Assembly (NCBI RefSeq): GCF_030503875.2 | Contig: NZ_CP129968.2 | Location: 1,178,001 to 1,242,000 of the forward strand | DNA length: 64,000 nt | Origin: Marivirga arenosa | GTDB lineage: Bacteria; Bacteroidota; Bacteroidia; Cytophagales; Cyclobacteriaceae | Direction of reading: 5' to 3' | Shown: positions 35,823 through 43,259 of the stretch, one piece after another | Numbering within the stretch: the first letter of the stretch is position 1 | Layout: each line of letters starts with the position of its first letter | The notes under the pieces: generated by a model | What the model was told of the DNA's origin: nothing | What the model saw: only the letters and a program-made list of their open reading frames with translations | Database searches by the model: none | Made by a program: the position numbers and the translations under genes

Positions 35823-36794
35823 TTGGTAGAAAAAGTTATCACCTTGGAAAATGTATCCCTTGTGGATTTTTTAGGAGTAGAAAATCGTAATATCAACGAG
35901 TTATCCTCTGCTTTTCCTAAATCAAAAATTATCTCTAGGGGAAATGAAATAAGAATACAAGGAAGCACACCTGAAATTATTCGAATCAATCAAATTGTGC
36001 ATTCTCTAGTAACTCATTATCATAAGTTTGGAAAAATTACGGAGGAAAGTGTAAAAACGTATTTAAACGAGGAATACGAAGAAAGCAAAAAGAAACTAGA
36101 TGGTAATGCGGATGAAACTTTAGTATTCGGAACTAAAGGATATGCCATAAAAGCTAAAACTCCGAATCAAATCAAATTGGTAGAGGCTGTAAGAAAAAAT
36201 GATTTGGTTTTCGCAATTGGGCCGGCCGGTACTGGAAAAACCTATGTATCTGTAGCAATGGCTGTGCAAGCCCTTAAAAACAAGGAAGTTCGTAAAATTA
36301 TTATCACTAGACCTGCGGTTGAAGCAGGAGAAAATTTAGGTTTCCTTCCTGGAGATTTAAAAGAAAAAATTGATCCTTATTTAAGACCAATTTATGATGC
36401 ATTAGATGATATGGTGCCTGCGGAAAAGCTAAAATATTATCAAGAAAACAGAGTGATAGAAATTGCTCCTTTAGCTTATATGAGAGGGCGAACACTTCAT
36501 AATGCCTTTATATTATTGGATGAGGCCCAGAATACGACCCCAATGCAAATTAAAATGTTCCTAACCAGAATGGGGCCGCATTCTAAAGCGATCATTACGG
36601 GTGATATGAGCCAGGTTGACTTGCCCAAGAAGCAAAAGTCAGGATTGATAGAGTCAACTCAAATCTTAAAAGATATTAAAGGGATAGGAATAGTGAATTT
36701 AAAAGGTGAAGATGTAGTTCGCCACCGATTGGTGAAACACATAATCGAAGCCTATGATAAAAATGATGCTAAAGTTCAAAAAGAAGAAAAATGA
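35823..36794 (+). CDS. phoH: PhoH-family ATPase
   Basis: A 323-residue cytosolic ATPase with an N-terminal KH-like part (residues 1-95) and a P-loop domain: GPAGTGKT Walker A at about residue 138 and FILLDEAQNT Walker B. The family is linked to RNA metabolism and often sits by ybeY. The start is a TTG: no upstream ATG exists and the family N-terminus fits. It overlaps the GNAT gene by 4 bases. Confidence 0.93.
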   Translation: MVEKVITLENVSLVDFLGVENRNINELSSAFPKSKIISRGNEIRIQGSTPEIIRINQIVHSLVTHYHKFGKITEESVKTYLNEEYEESKKKLDGNADETLVFGTKGYAIKAKTPNQIKLVEAVRKNDLVFAIGPAGTGKTYVSVAMAVQALKNKEVRKIIITRPAVEAGENLGFLPGDLKEKIDPYLRPIYDALDDMVPAEKLKYYQENRVIEIAPLAYMRGRTLHNAFILLDEAQNTTPMQIKMFLTRMGPHSKAIITGDMSQVDLPKKQKSGLIESTQILKDIKGIGIVNLKGEDVVRHRLVKHIIEAYDKNDAKVQKEEK

Positions 36795-37231
36795 TTTCGG
36801 TACGAGTTGTAGATAATCAGGAAGATCTTAAGAAAATATTCTCAATCAGAGAAAAAGTATTTGTTGAGGAACAAAATGTAGCTCGTGAAGAGGAATATGA
36901 TGAATTCGAAGATATATCAACCCATTTTATTGCGGAAGATGAATTGGGTAACGCATGCGGTACTGCCCGTTGGAGATTCACAGATAATGGAATGAAATTA
37001 GAACGATTTGCTGTACTAAAATCCCATAGAGGAAAAGGAGTAGGGCAGGCATTGGTACAGGCCGTAATTGATGATATCCGAGCTAATCCAAAGTCAGAGG
37101 GTAAGAAGCTTTATATGCATGCTCAGCTCCCTGCTGTTAGCTTATATGAGCGATTTGGTTTCAAAAAAGTTGGAGATCAATTCGAGGAATGTAATATCAT
37201 GCACTATCAGATGGAGATGATGAATAGCTGA
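36791..37231 (+). CDS. GNAT-family N-acetyltransferase
   Basis: A 146-residue acetyltransferase with the CoA-binding loop SHRGKGVGQALV and LYERFGFKKVG. The start overlaps phoH by 4 bases (ATGA), so it is co-expressed with it. EEQNVAREEEYDEFE at the N-terminus resembles the ElaA-like branch. Substrate unknown. Confidence 0.9.
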   Translation: MISVRVVDNQEDLKKIFSIREKVFVEEQNVAREEEYDEFEDISTHFIAEDELGNACGTARWRFTDNGMKLERFAVLKSHRGKGVGQALVQAVIDDIRANPKSEGKKLYMHAQLPAVSLYERFGFKKVGDQFEECNIMHYQMEMMNS

Positions 37232-37309
37232 ACCAAATGGTAATTCATCTCTTATTCTAAGTCAAATCAGACAAAATTTCTACACAAAAGTAATTTATCG
37301 GGAGAAACA

Positions 37310-37368
37310 AAACGCAATTAAGTTGCGTTTATTTTTAATCTTTTTATATTTGCAATTGAGTTGCGTTA
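37310..37368 (+). promoter_or_regulatory. Double-operator promoter upstream of the MerC-like gene
   Basis: The first palindrome is AAACGCAA-N5-TTGCGTTT (37310-37330), perfect over 8-bp arms. The second is TGCAA-N5-TTGCG (37351-37365), imperfect. TATATTTG at 37345-37352 is an exact -7 element, and the TTG at 37323-37325 is 19 nt upstream as a -33. The operators therefore cover both promoter elements, the layout of a repressor. The same layout recurs at 40438-40495. A Fur/Zur-type regulator is my inference from the genes controlled. Confidence 0.8.
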
Positions 37369-37396
37369 GTAGTCATCAATTATTCAATTGGTAAAG

Positions 37397-37813
37397 ATGA
37401 ATAGATTAAATGTTAGTTCAAATAAAATACCGCTCGATGCAATCGGCATGATGGCTTCTATATTATGCGCCATTCATTGTGCAGCATTGCCAGTGTTGTT
37501 AAGCCTTTCAACTTTGGCAAGCCTGCACTTTTTAGCTAATCCTTGGATAGAATATTCAATCATTTTCTTCAGTTTATTATTAGCATTAGTTTCTTTTCTG
37601 CCTGCTTTTAAAAGACATCATTCGAATTTTTTACCCTTAATACTATTGGGATTGGGCTTTATATTGATTGGGATGGGTCAATCTGGATTAATAGAGGTAA
37701 ATGAAGTTGTACTTACAGTCAGCGGTGCATTTTTAATTGCGATAGCCCATATAGTCAACTGGATTATGGTAGTCAAAACAAGAAAAGCATTTTTGATGGC
37801 AGAAACAATTTAA
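37397..37813 (+). CDS. MerC-like metal transport membrane protein
   Basis: A 138-residue inner-membrane protein with about four hydrophobic segments. ILCAIHCAALPVLLSL carries the CxxHC metal motif of MerC-domain proteins; here it is unlikely to concern mercury because no mer genes are near. The start is the ATG giving MNRLNVSSNK; a TTG 9 bases upstream is also in frame. It is first in the metal cluster, directly under the double operator. Likely moves zinc or a similar ion (inference). Confidence 0.85.
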   Translation: MNRLNVSSNKIPLDAIGMMASILCAIHCAALPVLLSLSTLASLHFLANPWIEYSIIFFSLLLALVSFLPAFKRHHSNFLPLILLGLGFILIGMGQSGLIEVNEVVLTVSGAFLIAIAHIVNWIMVVKTRKAFLMAETI

Positions 37814-37814
37814 A

Positions 37815-38039
37815 GTGACAGAAATCATCAACTTTTTAAAAAGGCAAATTTATAGAGTAGATTCGAAAAACATCACAAATGGAAACTGGAACGCTATTCG
37901 ACAAACGAAGCCCTTTGATGTAGCCTTTTTAAAAGGAGAAAACCTTTTATACCCAAATGGTAAAGGCATTGTGCATAGATCACCTCCAATTGAAGAAAGT
38001 GAAGAAAAGAGAATCTTATTAAGAATAGATGAAAGATAA
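37815..38039 (+). CDS. Small DUF1826-like protein
   Basis: A 74-residue product starting at a GTG one base after the MerC stop. The segment VAFLKGENLLYPNGKGIVHRSPP followed by a Leu-rich strand resembles the C-terminal end of DUF1826 proteins, which occur beside Zur-regulated genes; this comparison is from memory. Only the end of that domain is present, so it may be a natural short form or a remnant. Tight linkage to merC and the operators argues for a real gene. Confidence 0.55.
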   Translation: MTEIINFLKRQIYRVDSKNITNGNWNAIRQTKPFDVAFLKGENLLYPNGKGIVHRSPPIEESEEKRILLRIDER

Positions 38040-38064
38040 TTCCTGAATAGTAAAATAAGACTAA

Positions 38065-38088
38065 TATTTTTGCAAATATGTTGCGTTT
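38065..38088 (+). promoter_or_regulatory. Operator and -7 element over the TonB-receptor start codon
   Basis: TGCAA-ATATG-TTGCG (38071-38085) is the same palindrome with N5 spacer as at the other two sites, and its spacer contains the start codon. TATTTTTG at 38065-38072 fits TAnnTTTG. No convincing -33 element is seen. Confidence 0.6.
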
Positions 38089-40435
38089 ACTGATTATTAC
38101 GTTTTTATTTTTCTCTCATTTTTTTGTTCTAGCTCAAAAATTTGAAGGAAATGTTGTGGGCACAGACGGCCAGCCATTAGAGGCTGTATTACTTACTTTC
38201 CACCCAATGAAAGTTCGTACTACCACGGATATTGAGGGTAAGTTTGCTATCAACATCGACAAACAGCAAAAAGTGGAATCAATTGAAATCAATCATGTAA
38301 CGCATATTCCACAAATCATTCCTATTTCAGAATTTAAGAACCTAAATGACATCAAAATTGTATGCCATGAGGATGTCCAGACCTTGTTTGAAGTTAAGGT
38401 TGTTTCCGACAATATTTTATCGAGAGTAATCGATAAAACCCAGCCGGTTCAAATGGTGGATAAGGATTTTATTGAGCGAAATAGTAGTGGTACATTTTCT
38501 GGTGCACTCGCTGCTTTGCCTGGGGTCAATACCATTAATGTTGGTGTGGGAATAGCTAAACCTATGATTAGAGGGATGAGTTTCAACCGAATTATGGTAA
38601 ATAATAGGGGAATTAAACAAGAAGGACAACAGTGGGGTGCTGATCATGGGCTCGAGATTGATCCATTCGATGTTGATCAGGTGGAAGTCATAAAGGGGCC
38701 TGGATCTCTGCTTTTTGGGCCAGATGGAATGGGCGGTGTGATTAACATCAAGGAGAATAATATACCCTTGCAGGACGGAAATACTATTGAGTATTTATCT
38801 TCCTACCAAACCAATAATCACGCTTTTTCAAATTCCTTGGAATTTAAGGGTAAGAAAAGGGCGCTCTTTTACAGTGCCCGAATGACCCATCAGGATTTCG
38901 GAGACTATTCTGTGCCGGCTGATGATTTTACCTATGCAGGATTTGAGCTTCCAATTGAGGAAAATAGACTGAAAAATACTGCGGGTAATGAATTACATTT
39001 GAGCGCTTTAATTGGTTTAAAATACCAGAATTTTAAGAGCAGCTTGAGGTTTACAAGCTTTAATCAAGAAGCTGGAATCTTTACAGGGGCTATAGGGCTT
39101 CCTCGCAGTTATAATTTAAGGCATAACGGTGATTTTAGAAATGTGGATTTACCCAAGCAACGAAATCAGCATCATATGCTTATTAGTAACTCTTACTGGC
39201 GTTTTGGAAATCAAAAATTCGAGCTGGATTTAGGGTATCAGCGGAATAATAGAAATGAATTATCGTTTCCGGGCGCTCATGGAATCGCACCAGAATATGC
39301 CAATTCAAATTTGGCTTTGGGTCTACATTTAAATACTTATACCGCCAACCTTAGATACGAATTTAATCCTAATCCAAATCATCAAATATTAATGGGCGGG
39401 CAGTTCCAATGGATGGAAAATCAAAGAGATGGTTTTGAGTTTTTATTGCCCGACTATACGAGTTCGCAATTAGGCTTTTATCATTACCAGCTTTTTGATA
39501 TGAAAGATCAATTTATTTTAAATGGGGGAATACGATATGATCGAGCTAGTCATCAAATCAATCAGCATTTACAACCCGTTTTTGATAGAGGAACGCTACA
39601 GCCGACCGGGGAAATGATGGAAAGAACGCCAGCTTTCGATCGCTATTTTGAAAATTTTAGTGGAGGATTAGGCGTGACGTATATGGCTACTAAGCAGGAT
39701 CACATAAAATTTAATTTAGGCAATAGTTTTCGCTATCCCACTGCTATAGAGCTTTCCAGTAATGGCGTTCATCATGGGAATTTCAGACATGAATTGGGAG
39801 ATCGTGATCTTGATATAGAAAATGGCTATCAAGCAGATATAAATTACATCCATCAGTCTGAACAATTGTTCCTGGAGATTTCTGCTTTTTACGCCTATTA
39901 TAATGATTATATATATTTAGCGCCCACGGGAAACTTTTCATTCCTAGCATCAGGGGGGACTATGTGGCAGTACCGTCAGGATGACGCGCTATTCAATGGT
40001 TTTGAAATTAGTACATCCTACCAACCGGTTTTCTATTTTAAGAACGAAACAGTAATTGAATTTGTGCAAAATCTGAATTTGAATAGCAGATTAGCCCTGC
40101 CCTTAACACCACCTCCATCAATTGTTAATACTTTTGAATTTGAAAATTTTGTATCTGAAGGATATCGATTAAAGGAGGAATACCTTTTCATTTCCGGAAG
40201 GTATAATTTTGCTCAAAATAGAACAGATCGAAACGAGAGACCAACATTCGATAGTTTTATATTAAACTTTGGAGCGGGTGCTCACACATTGTTTTTCAAT
40301 CAAGAATTTGATTTTAAATTTTCTGTGAATAACGCACTCAATACCTTCTATTTTAATCACATCAGCCGATATCGATTAATAAATTTACCCGAGCAAGGCA
40401 GGAATTTTACCTTTTCTGTAAAAATAACAATTTAA
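38078..40435 (+). CDS. TonB-dependent outer-membrane receptor
   Basis: A 785-residue receptor. Signal peptide to about residue 19 (FFVLAQ), a carboxypeptidase-regulatory-like domain at about 20-105 (FEGNVVGTDGQPLEAVLLTF), plug at about 115-225 (VEVIKGPGSLLFGPDGMGGVINI), then the barrel ending NFTFSVKITI. No ATG other than 38078 gives the signal peptide. Position between metal genes under matching operators indicates uptake of zinc or a metal complex (inference); no siderophore genes are present. Confidence 0.93.
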   Translation: MLRLLIITFLFFSHFFVLAQKFEGNVVGTDGQPLEAVLLTFHPMKVRTTTDIEGKFAINIDKQQKVESIEINHVTHIPQIIPISEFKNLNDIKIVCHEDVQTLFEVKVVSDNILSRVIDKTQPVQMVDKDFIERNSSGTFSGALAALPGVNTINVGVGIAKPMIRGMSFNRIMVNNRGIKQEGQQWGADHGLEIDPFDVDQVEVIKGPGSLLFGPDGMGGVINIKENNIPLQDGNTIEYLSSYQTNNHAFSNSLEFKGKKRALFYSARMTHQDFGDYSVPADDFTYAGFELPIEENRLKNTAGNELHLSALIGLKYQNFKSSLRFTSFNQEAGIFTGAIGLPRSYNLRHNGDFRNVDLPKQRNQHHMLISNSYWRFGNQKFELDLGYQRNNRNELSFPGAHGIAPEYANSNLALGLHLNTYTANLRYEFNPNPNHQILMGGQFQWMENQRDGFEFLLPDYTSSQLGFYHYQLFDMKDQFILNGGIRYDRASHQINQHLQPVFDRGTLQPTGEMMERTPAFDRYFENFSGGLGVTYMATKQDHIKFNLGNSFRYPTAIELSSNGVHHGNFRHELGDRDLDIENGYQADINYIHQSEQLFLEISAFYAYYNDYIYLAPTGNFSFLASGGTMWQYRQDDALFNGFEISTSYQPVFYFKNETVIEFVQNLNLNSRLALPLTPPPSIVNTFEFENFVSEGYRLKEEYLFISGRYNFAQNRTDRNERPTFDSFILNFGAGAHTLFFNQEFDFKFSVNNALNTFYFNHISRYRLINLPEQGRNFTFSVKITI

Positions 40436-40437
40436 TT

Positions 40438-40495
40438 AACGCAAACTACTTGCGTTTGTAGTTTGCGGATGTATATTTGCAATTATGTTGCATTA
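40438..40495 (+). promoter_or_regulatory. Second double-operator promoter, upstream of the DUF4625 gene
   Basis: AACGCAA-N5-TTGCGTT (40438-40456) is a perfect 7-bp-arm palindrome, and TGCAA-N5-TTGCA lies at 40478-40492. TATATTTG at 40472-40479 is an exact -7 element, with TTG at 40450-40452 19 nt upstream. Centre-to-centre distance of the two palindromes is 38 bp, the same as at 37310-37368. A further inverted repeat, CGCAAACTAC / GTAGTTTGCG (40440-40449 and 40458-40467), overlaps it. Confidence 0.8.
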
Positions 40496-40510
40496 GTAAT
40501 ATTGTTGCAA

Positions 40511-41404
40511 ATGAAAAGAAGACTTTACCTTTCATTACCAATTCTGCTGATATTCAATTTTGCTTGTTTAGAAGAAGCGGAGGATATACAGTTTGATGAA
40601 CCACAGATCAATCCTTTAGAAGGCCTGCAAAGTATTTCACCCCAATACTTCAAGATTGTAAGACCGGATGAGAACGAGATACCCTTAGCCTTTTCAGTTC
40701 AAGATGATTCAGGGATCGAAGAAATTAAAATTGAATCTCATTCAGGCTTTGATGGGCACACACATGGTAGATTGGCCTTTGCTAACAATTTTCTATTGTT
40801 CAATTACTTTCATGTCATCGAAGCATCCGAATTAGAAGATCCTACATTTTTTTCCACAATTGAAGATGATAATTTAACGATCTACTTGGATGAAAGACAT
40901 GATGGATTAGGTGAGGATGATAACATTTTGGCTGGCCCCTATCACTTTTCCATTACAGCTACTGATGTGGATGGAAATGAAACCAGTTACAGAGAGAATA
41001 CGACTTATCATACCGTCATTTATATTCAAAGACCCTACGCGCCACAAATAGAAATCAACTCAGACGATTTATCCAGGGGCGAAATAAGAGGTAGAATATT
41101 TAGGAATACAGCCCATGAATTGTCTTCTGACATAGGGTTTCTTTGGTTGTTTATTGAGAAAAAAGATCCCGAAAAGCCTAATCAGGAAGGCGAAATTATG
41201 GAAGAGTGGATTTGGGGTGAAGCTAATTGGCCACATCAATTTAGAGAAAATAGCGGGAAAGCCCTTCCTAGCTCTCAGGAAATCGATATCAAAAGCTTAA
41301 TCGAAAGTGAAAATATATCTTTCGATTTAGCCGAGGATGAAAGAATGGTCTTCTGGATAGAAGACGCTAACGGAAATATAACTGTAGAATACATTGATAA
41401 CTAA
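40511..41404 (+). CDS. DUF4625-like lipoprotein
   Basis: A 297-residue lipoprotein; the start is the ATG giving MKRRLYLSLPILLIFNFAC, lipobox cysteine 19. An upstream in-frame codon at 40463 would begin inside the operator. The body (PLAFSVQDDSGIEEIKIE, FDGHTHGRLAF, YHFSITATDVDGNETSY) has immunoglobulin-like strands and a short His-rich loop and fits DUF4625 as I know it. Located between the receptor and the His-rich propeller, so probably a surface metal-binding partner. Confidence 0.7.
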   Translation: MKRRLYLSLPILLIFNFACLEEAEDIQFDEPQINPLEGLQSISPQYFKIVRPDENEIPLAFSVQDDSGIEEIKIESHSGFDGHTHGRLAFANNFLLFNYFHVIEASELEDPTFFSTIEDDNLTIYLDERHDGLGEDDNILAGPYHFSITATDVDGNETSYRENTTYHTVIYIQRPYAPQIEINSDDLSRGEIRGRIFRNTAHELSSDIGFLWLFIEKKDPEKPNQEGEIMEEWIWGEANWPHQFRENSGKALPSSQEIDIKSLIESENISFDLAEDERMVFWIEDANGNITVEYIDN

Positions 41405-41418
41405 TAAATTTAATTGTA

Positions 41419-42729
41419 ATGAAAACAACTTTGATTAAAATTTGGAGCCTGATCTTTTTGATTGCTTTATTTTCTGCTTGTAATGATGATATAGATGATG
41501 TAGCTGATGATTTGGAATCTTTTGAAGAAATGGAAAGCTCTTGGGTAAGATTGTCATTGATGGATCAAAATGGAATTGATGTTATGCAACCCAATAATAG
41601 ACAAATTCATGCAAGAGTTGAAGGGAACTTAGTTGAAGGAGCAAGATACTATACCAGTAATTCGGGAAGATATCTAATTGCAATTGATAGAGCGGGCGGT
41701 GCAGTGAAATTCTTTGATTCTGGTGTAGAATTTCATATTGATCATGGTCACGAACATACACCAAAATGGTTAGATTTAGAAGTTAATACTTTATTGCCAA
41801 CCCACTTCGGAAGCTCATTAGGTCATATGGTGATATTTAATGATGGTGATGGCTCCATTACCCATATAAATGAGGCTCAATTAGAGATTCCTACCTACTC
41901 ACCCGTTACTTATTCTTTTGAAAATACGGTTGCACATCATGGAGCTGGTTTTAGGTTAGAAAATGGTCAGTTTGTTACAACTTTCAAAAATAATAATGAG
42001 CCTGGCGGATTGCCTCAAATGGTGAAATTTGTTGAAAGTAATGGAAATGTAATAGACGATAATGGTGGAGTAGAAGTGGGAGCTATCCATGGAGATGCTT
42101 CTAATGGACATCACGGTATATTTGGAAGTACAGATGGAGTTATTTTAGTGAATGATGAAGGGGAAATTAGTTTAATTGAGAACACTGGCGACTTAAATTC
42201 AGAATCAGGCAACTGGTTAGGGACTTTAAAAGGACATGATAATTCAAAGATGTTTTTTGCACGATCTAGAAATGTAGGAGCTTTTATGATCGATCCTGAA
42301 AATAAATCTATGACTCAAATTTATGCAGGTTCCGATGTAGTGGGAGATATGTTTAGCTTTGATGGGAAGTATTATATTTTACATACTGCAGATAATATGT
42401 TGAGAGTATTTGATGCGCATGATGGAGTTGAAATTGCCAGCAGAATGGTAGAAATGGCAGATATTCCTGAAGCTGAAGGTCACGATCATAGATCAGCTTT
42501 ATCAGAAATTGAAATTTTAAGAAAAATGGACGATCCTGATCCGGTTTTAGTTTGTTCCGATAAATTCTTATACGTTTTGTCTACTAATAGAACTCAAATC
42601 AAAGTTTTAGAAATTGACGATTTACATCACGTAGAAACAATTGAATTAGATAATGCAGTTGAAAGTATGATGAAAAATGGGTTTTCATTAGAAGGTGATG
42701 ATGATCATGATCACGATCACGATCATTGA
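41419..42729 (+). CDS. His-rich AztD-like metal-binding lipoprotein
   Basis: A 436-residue protein with lipobox cysteine 21 (LFSAC). The body reads as beta-propeller blades (SGRYLIAIDRAGGAVKFFD, GSTDGVILVNDEGEISLIE). A histidine cluster HIDHGHEH lies at residues 106-113, with more pairs at 173-174 and 231-232, and the last ten residues alternate Asp and His. Layout matches AztD, a periplasmic zinc chaperone of alphaproteobacterial Azt systems; that comparison is inference. Starts 14 bases after the DUF4625 gene, so it is in the same transcript. Confidence 0.75.
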   Translation: MKTTLIKIWSLIFLIALFSACNDDIDDVADDLESFEEMESSWVRLSLMDQNGIDVMQPNNRQIHARVEGNLVEGARYYTSNSGRYLIAIDRAGGAVKFFDSGVEFHIDHGHEHTPKWLDLEVNTLLPTHFGSSLGHMVIFNDGDGSITHINEAQLEIPTYSPVTYSFENTVAHHGAGFRLENGQFVTTFKNNNEPGGLPQMVKFVESNGNVIDDNGGVEVGAIHGDASNGHHGIFGSTDGVILVNDEGEISLIENTGDLNSESGNWLGTLKGHDNSKMFFARSRNVGAFMIDPENKSMTQIYAGSDVVGDMFSFDGKYYILHTADNMLRVFDAHDGVEIASRMVEMADIPEAEGHDHRSALSEIEILRKMDDPDPVLVCSDKFLYVLSTNRTQIKVLEIDDLHHVETIELDNAVESMMKNGFSLEGDDDHDHDHDH

Positions 42730-42797
42730 AAATTGCTTTAATAGTTTCGGTAAATGAATTGGGGATTAGGCTCCCCATTCATTTGAATTAAAATACT

Positions 42798-42888
42798 AAG
42801 GGAGTGTAAACAAGGTAAAATTTTAGTGATTAAGCTTGGTCCAGTCATATTATTAGATTTTGGTTAGTTAGCTGGTAATCACTCCCTT
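42798..42888. terminator. Complex hairpin between the metal cluster and the DUF6249 gene
   Basis: AAGGGAGTG (42798-42806) pairs with CACTCCCTT (42880-42888), and the T-run after it fits a + strand terminator. Inside, GTGATTA (42826-42832) pairs with TAATCAC (42876-42882), sharing CAC with the outer arm, and CCAG/CTGG pairs lie further in. The two pairings compete. Confidence 0.55.
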
Positions 42889-42893
42889 TTTTT

Positions 42894-43259
42894 CTATTTC
42901 TCTTCATCTTTTTTATCCATCCAACGAAGGCTAAGAAATGAGCTAACCAGGCCAATTCCGCCAAAGATGAAGATGCCTGATACATATAGGACTTCATTAT
43001 TATTTTTCATGTCAAGCGCATTATCAAGTATAACGGCAAAGACAATCCCTAAACCAATACCGATAGCCATCATTCCTATAACTAAGGCAATAGCATAGAC
43101 CGGATGTCTCTTTCTTTGCACTTTAGGTGCCTGAAATAATGAGGCATCAGCGCCAGCTTCAATTAAGGCTAGCCTTTCTTTATTTCGAGTGTAAAAGAAA
43201 TAGTAGCTAATACCGAAGATTGTAGCGAAAAGGGATATAAATACGATTACTGCTTCCAT
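42894..43259 (-). CDS. DUF6249-like membrane protein
   Basis: A 121-residue inner-membrane protein with an N-terminal helix (VIVFISLFATIFGISYYFF), a cytoplasmic loop (RNKERLALIEAGADASLF, the family signature) and two further helices. Its promoter at 43300-43326 matches the ECF sigma gene promoter, so it is probably a target of that sigma factor. Function unknown. Confidence 0.8.
   Translation of the reverse strand: MEAVIVFISLFATIFGISYYFFYTRNKERLALIEAGADASLFQAPKVQRKRHPVYAIALVIGMMAIGIGLGIVFAVILDNALDMKNNNEVLYVSGIFIFGGIGLVSSFLSLRWMDKKDEEK

Follow-up and report, generated by a model that had tools for sequence, protein, structure and literature searches.

Operators joined to promoter and start codon in two predicted zinc-regulated operons of Marivirga arenosa

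We studied two neighbouring operons in a stretch of the 4.05 Mb genome of Marivirga arenosa (C1:1178001-1242000, 64 kb, here called the window; C1:n denotes a coordinate in this genome, G-numbers the genomes compared and L-numbers individual loci). Judged from the sequence, the window very probably contains two operons belonging to a zinc-starvation (Zur) regulon, which Zur dimers would repress and whose tonB mRNA would be leaderless. A zinc-type acquisition regulon under a Zur-type regulator had been proposed in an earlier note on the same DNA, and the proposal gains support from the conserved site-1 histidines of an AztD-like protein and from palindromes before a Zur-like gene and a predicted ZIP operon elsewhere in the genome (see below). 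The zinc reading is regarded here as well supported, not proven.

The palindrome GCAA-N5-TTGC occurs five times in the window (37314-37326, 37352-37364, 38072-38084, 40441-40453 and 40479-40491), always within the same 3.2 kb, and the five places agree with those given in the earlier note. Controls, which were dinucleotide shuffles and order-1 Markov windows for the window and the reversed pattern for genome scans, rarely matched this: five palindromes anywhere were reached by 2 of 100 shuffles, and among 400 Markov windows at least five were present in 5, five within 3.2 kb in none and a pair within 60 bp in 1. The combined form TAnnTTTGCAAN5TTGC is found three times on the positive strand of the window (37345, 38065 and 40472), versus 1 of 400 Markov windows that had any. 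The palindrome shares its 7-1-7 geometry with Fur-family boxes. The operators and promoter elements are the following:

37310..37330: operator 1, merC module, palindrome AAACGCAA-N5-TTGCGTTT over the -33 region, arms identical in the same-genus genome G004
37345..37352, + strand: -7 element of merC, TATATTTG
37350..37366: operator 2, merC module, TTGCAA-N5-TTGCGT, 38 bp past operator 1
38065..38072, + strand: -7 element of the tonB promoter, TATTTTTG
38070..38086: operator 3, TTGCAA-ATATG-TTGCGT, holding the tonB start codon (38078-38080)
40439..40455: operator 4, second module, ACGCAA-N5-TTGCGT over the -33 region
40472..40479, + strand: -7 element of the DUF4625/AztD-like operon, TATATTTG
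40477..40493: operator 5, TTGCAA-TTATG-TTGCAT, 38 bp past operator 4; its own ATG opens only MLH*

Four of these palindromes form two pairs with centres at 37320/37358 and 40447/40485, both exactly 38 bp apart. In both modules the gap from TTG to TAnnTTTG is 19 nt, the TTG is part of the upstream palindrome, and the G of the downstream palindrome is the final base of the TAnnTTTG box, so that the two strong/weak pairs described earlier over the -33 and -7 elements are borne out by the coordinates. The upstream members have perfect ACGCAA...TTGCGT arms and the downstream members start with TTGCAA. Both promoters recognized earlier stand, but another had been overlooked: a TAnnTTTG box (38065-38072) runs into the third palindrome (38071-38085) as well, which raises the number of promoters from two to three, and here the tonB ATG (38078) lies inside the palindrome. 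No TTG was found at the -33 place of this third promoter; passages of PMC6847099 describe the -33 motif of Flavobacterium johnsoniae as far less evident than the -7 box. The conserved minor open reading frame (ORF) MLH* at 40485 was rejected as a gene because the operator consensus spells it.

The 38-bp spacing had been read as a sign of cooperative binding on one face of the DNA or of looping. We rejected this on the geometry and because the spacing is explained by the promoter elements. At 10.5 bp per turn, 38 bp make 3.6 helical turns, therefore two dimers would face different sides, and a simple loop would need more than 38 bp; the two palindromes are 38 bp apart because they occupy the two promoter elements (TTG, 19 nt, TAnnTTTG). 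Among 40 distinct pairs in the retrieved loci, most of them found via the pair search, 15 were exactly 38 bp apart, as were 13 of the 22 pairs with TAnnTTTG on one member; further spacings included 28, 36 and 39 bp and others. Fourteen modules were found by searching for the 38-bp form itself, and these show recurrence, not the absence of other forms.

Recurrence in related genomes, which the earlier note had named as a test, was evident. Palindrome pairs (N10-40) were present in 56 of 148 genomes of the family (reversed control, 1), and a fuller form, TGCAACNNNGTTGCA, frequent in relatives and absent from our genome, in 58 of 98 (control, 3). To see what lies behind promoter-palindromes we used 53 loci, 29 picked for an ATG within the palindrome and 24 (L198-L221) from genomes whose first listed site has none. 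They gave 47 proteins (26 of the ATG kind, 21 not; some genomes counted twice), of which 17 had a TonB plug, 14 were MerC and 4 DUF4625 (35 together), with 1 ZIP; the remainder includes evident chance hits. By eye, MerC proteins had His-rich loops. Left out of this count were L179, L192, L212 and L216, with no ORF behind the site, and L185 and L214, whose site was judged to be intra-ORF; L173, L182 and L195 carried the same flag, yet were retained because by eye the flagged frame looked spurious or like an extended version of the same gene. Among the 24 loci L198-L221, the site lay within a long ORF in three (L212, L214 and L216) and in five others (L199, L208, L211, L213 and L220) the gene that follows is not of zinc type, judged by Pfam or by eye. 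A box common to all Bacteroidota was rejected: the strict promoter form was found in only 10 of 198 genomes of the phylum (control, 2), so the palindrome is lineage-bound. By eye, hits outside the family lie before a MerC-like protein in one case and before small His-containing proteins in two; the rest lie before neither.

A start codon inside the operator is a repeated arrangement. The form TAnnTTTGCAAnnATGTTGC was found in 32 of the 148 genomes, with no hit in the control, and in 21 of its 36 sites (three in our genome) the ATG opens an ORF of at least 80 aa. When the following bases were shuffled (200 runs) the mean was 0.66 and the maximum 3. These 21 ORFs, inspected by eye, include 12 MerC-like proteins and 7 TonB receptors; in several of them the sequence resembles a signal peptide from that very ATG on. 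The start distances of the 53 loci were dropped as evidence, as their histogram mixes ATG-selected with non-ATG loci, and the count of 21 in 36 with its shuffle control was used instead. The A of the embedded ATG lies 6 nt past the G of TAnnTTTG; given that passages of PMC9723704 and PMC6847099 place this box at -12 to -5 in Flavobacterium, the ATG would be at +1 or +2, that is, leaderless, and the tonB mRNA is predicted to start 0-1 nt before its AUG. At L201 the same place reads ACG before a MerC gene, and in the window merC has no ATG inside its palindrome, its start lying 45 nt after the G. As with known leaderless mRNAs of Bacteroidota, the AUG is predicted to stand at the 5' end; such mRNAs are rare there (5.5% in F. 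psychrophilum according to a passage of PMC9723704, and in B. thetaiotaomicron about 3.7% whose leaders are shorter than 10 nt according to one of PMC7366714), but here they are tied to one operator.

On balance we lean slightly towards the view that an approximately 20-bp composite element, TAnnTTTGCAAnnATGTTGC, combines the -7 box, the Zur operator, the transcription start and the start codon in this Cytophagales family. It would be found across many genera on merC and TonB-receptor genes, make the protein start with Met-Leu-(Gln/His/Arg) and let zinc starvation release leaderless uptake mRNAs, with DUF4625 and the AztD-like propeller as a two-lipoprotein zinc-capture pair feeding the TonB receptor. 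If this is true, the same bases serve both the binding of the repressor and the entry of the ribosome, a natural case of operator, promoter and start codon as one element that would be useful for the study of leaderless translation in bacteria without Shine-Dalgarno sequences.

No regulator gene had been seen in the window, and indeed the three Fur-family genes of the genome all lie elsewhere. Only that at C1:774135 has Zur as its best NCBIfam model (1.2e-11), the other two matching Fur best; its product reaches 53 bits with Pfam FUR (cut-off 23.1). A palindrome ends 23 bp before the start of this gene, and none was found within 400 bp upstream of the other two. Cysteines C109, C112, C145 and C148, in two CxxC pairs, are invariant in an eight-sequence alignment that includes the two other Fur proteins; this structural zinc site is a common Fur-family feature, hence not specific to Zur. 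Its YAMC aligns with YVLC of E. coli Zur, the Cys of which we take to be the zinc ligand Cys88, and this Cys is absent in the two other Fur proteins. Homologues of the gene were matched in 47 of 59 genomes and 30 loci were inspected upstream: the N5 palindrome precedes all eight close homologues (67-100% identity, our own included), and an N5 gap occurs in 9 of the 30 loci, versus 0-4 for every other gap from 1 to 11.

The genome scan suggested earlier also found the palindrome before a second TonB receptor and a predicted ZIP operon, in addition to the Zur-like gene. The exact TAnnTTTGCAAN5TTGC occurs five times in the genome: at the three window promoters, at C1:159498 before the second TonB receptor, which has its ATG at the same palindrome place as the window tonB and is 25% identical to it, and at C1:1003433. 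A palindrome at C1:3813582 precedes a row of ApbE, methyltransferase and ZIP genes (ZIP, 1.4e-21), a predicted operon. Three places, C1:1003433, C1:2469928 and C1:377483, the last within an ORF, were considered as regulon members and set aside as doubtful or undecided. As a separate observation, an exact CGCAAN5TTGCG at G000:C1:2469928-2469946 (L015) lies about 370 bp upstream of a gene that looks by eye like ExbB/TolQ, a possible energy partner for TonB receptors.

The genes of the two window operons are listed here:

37397..37813, + strand: merC-like membrane protein, 138 aa (Pfam MerC, 7.1e-24)
37815..38039, + strand: 74-aa protein, DUF1826 (PF08856, 5.7e-13), only the last 51 profile positions (152-202 of 202)
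38078..40435, + strand: TonB-dependent receptor, ZnuD/heme-receptor-like, predicted leaderless (NCBIfam ZnuD 1.6e-29, TonB-hemin 5.2e-29)
40511..41404, + strand: DUF4625 lipoprotein, candidate zinc binder, conserved His cluster H77, H83, H85, H145
41419..42729, + strand: AztD-like beta-propeller lipoprotein with a His-rich C-terminus

The gene list of the earlier note (MerC, DUF1826, TonB, DUF4625 and a His-rich propeller) had missed the likeness of the propeller to AztD. The last gene product has the AztD-type propeller fold and ends in a His-rich C-terminal tail. Site-1 ligands of AztD (His124, His167 and His218 of Paracoccus denitrificans) correspond to H129, H173/H174 and H224, which are His in 37 of 37 aligned sequences; of site 2 (His99, His102, Asp104, His408), HxxH is kept in 35 of 37 (two gaps) and the place of Asp104 holds His in 30 sequences, Asp in 5 and a gap in 2. 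At window-protein positions 214-241 none of the 37 sequences has a Cys that could correspond to the AztD disulfide (Cys214-Cys231), and because this conserved disulfide is missing the protein is named AztD-like; it also falls below the NCBIfam AztD cut-off (76 of 400 bits). No ABC transporter was found among the seven proteins scanned (36791-43259), the rest of the genome not having been searched for aztABC. The DUF4625 protein was modelled with a pLDDT of 87.7, and a structural search with this model gave no informative relative. Both lipoproteins have an acidic stretch right behind the lipobox Cys (CNDDIDD and CLEEAED), resembling the export signal of Bacteroidota surface lipoproteins. The 74-aa stand-alone protein is merely the C-terminal quarter of DUF1826, a domain linked to Zur in other bacteria in a passage of PMC5786701.

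In G004, of the same genus, merC has the corresponding position and also the 38-bp module, in which arms and promoter are identical (31/31), as compared with 7/16 for the spacer and 6/10 for the cores. The AztD-like gene is absent from G004, where the gene behind merC resembles one that comes directly after the GNAT gene in three further Marivirga genomes (G001, G005 and G008); for these reasons tonB, DUF4625 and the AztD-like gene give the impression of a cassette inserted after merC. The AztD-like protein of the window has 99% identity with a protein of M. arenosa NZ_CP129970.2, and the merC-tonB part of the locus is present in G381, of the same species. AztD-like genes were found in 8 of 98 relatives searched, our genome included. 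In other genomes an N5 palindrome lies within 250 bp upstream of 6 of 9 such genes, and another gap length is seen in one locus; in G017 the palindrome precedes a gene pair, at the second gene copy in G028 it lies at the ORF start, and the gene of G046 has none. In G028 the AztD-like gene has a COG0523 GTPase next to it, as it has, judged by eye, in G051, and Fur-family genes adjoin it in both genomes. Links of DUF1826 and COG0523 genes to Zur have been published for other bacteria (passages of PMC5786701 and PMC2770081). Two palindromes 38 bp apart adjoin a Fur-family gene in Algoriphagus locisalis. In the same species (L108, 9902-9936) three GCAAN5TTGC overlap head to tail in 11-bp steps before the AztD-like gene.

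We propose that zinc-loaded Zur dimers would occupy every palindrome and keep RNA polymerase from the -33 and -7 elements; where the ATG lies inside the palindrome, they would also cover the transcription start and the start codon. When zinc is scarce Zur would release the DNA, and MerC, the TonB receptor and the two lipoproteins (DUF4625 and AztD-like) would be made, the lipoproteins capturing zinc and handing it over.

Several results weigh against this proposal. The Zur assignment of C1:774135 is a best hit beneath the cut-off (44.6 bits vs 167), for which it is called Zur-like, and its top two PDB hits are nearly tied (E. coli Zur, 6.4e-08; a Fur, 8.1e-08). Only 1 of 22 remoter homologues has a palindrome within 400 bp upstream. 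The Fur-family genes at the AztD-like loci of G028 and G051 share no more than 29-31% identity with the proposed Zur, and the one in G028 fits the Fur model best. With no flank required, TAnnTTTGCAAN5TTGC reached 95 of 148 genomes against a sizeable control of 17; one-mismatch palindromes are common by chance in our genome (23 places vs 11 in the reversed control); and the gene that follows C1:1003433, one of the five exact promoter-palindromes, has no Pfam hit. The window TonB receptor fits heme-receptor models nearly as well as ZnuD, and the second receptor fits them better. These receptors and the sub-threshold Zur match would suit a Fur-family or other repressor that senses iron, heme, manganese, nickel or another non-zinc signal, the genes then importing that metal or heme. 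So would the opposite-strand ABC transporter genes downstream of the Zur-like gene, which include a Peripla_BP_2 binding protein, of a class that often serves siderophores, heme or B12. We nevertheless hold such a signal to be unlikely, in view of the AztD fold with its zinc-ligand positions kept, the ZIP transporters behind the same box, the COG0523-type GTPases beside AztD-like genes and the His-rich loops of the MerC proteins.

The different arms of upstream and downstream operators, together with the existence of three Fur-family genes, could also mean that two Fur proteins compete, each taking one operator of a 38-bp pair, with promoters answering to iron and zinc; this seems very improbable, as pair members look alike in relatives (by eye) and the other two Fur genes lack a palindrome in the 400 bp upstream. 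That the palindromes are ordinary repeats or part of a sigma-factor recognition site, with no regulator, is hardly credible. Some overlap with GCAA/TTGC arms is expected because TTG and TTTG are themselves promoter elements, but the reversed-pattern controls gave fewer hits, the N5 gap is fixed upstream of Zur homologues and the genes behind the palindromes are strongly biased.

A Zur regulon is in itself of a known kind. The predicted one resembles that of Caulobacter crescentus as described in passages of PMC4176598, with a Fur-family repressor, an inverted repeat and TonB-dependent zinc receptors (here predicted), but the sites there are TGTTA...TAACA and those here TGCAA...TTGCA, fused with TAnnTTTG and often a start codon. 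In E. coli (passages of PMC4219657) Zur likewise lies over core promoter elements, with two dimers cooperatively on each operator, a likeness that we infer here; there the dimers overlap on one site and bind adjacent faces, whereas here separate palindromes are 38 bp apart. The propeller shares with AztD of AztABCD its fold, the site-1 His positions and the site-2 HxxH, and aztD of P. denitrificans is under Zur control, according to passages of PMC6689063. It differs in being a lipoprotein beside DUF4625 and a TonB receptor, with no ABC transporter among the scanned neighbours, in lacking the disulfide cysteines and in having mostly His for the site-2 Asp. ZnuD is the best solved-structure match of the window TonB receptor (2.2e-12), over the plug part only (residues 132-232), and its NCBIfam score (103 of 950 bits) is far under the cut-off. 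Open-licence PMC papers searched describe no Zur box for these marine Bacteroidota, nor did we meet there this box, by itself or fused to a promoter and a start codon, or the set of DUF4625, AztD-like protein and TonB receptor; reviews PMC6103462 and PMC8000910 contain no word beginning with Bacteroid, and the Zur passages seen of PMC11960050 (Riemerella ZntR) concern other bacteria or references. For this group of marine Bacteroidota our results would offer a zinc box and a regulon open to testing, and would suggest functions for proteins labelled hypothetical, WD40 repeat or DUF4625.

Two further kinds of protein were observed. Proteins of roughly 150 aa whose start looks secretion-like were seen repeatedly behind the promoter-palindrome (L177, L178, L219 and L221); those of L177 and L219 were scanned and matched nothing in Pfam or NCBIfam. 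Acidic lipoproteins of some 190 aa, without a Pfam hit, lie behind the second TonB receptor in L067 (6882-7448) and behind the promoter-palindrome itself in L198, and are possibly further zinc-capture lipoproteins.

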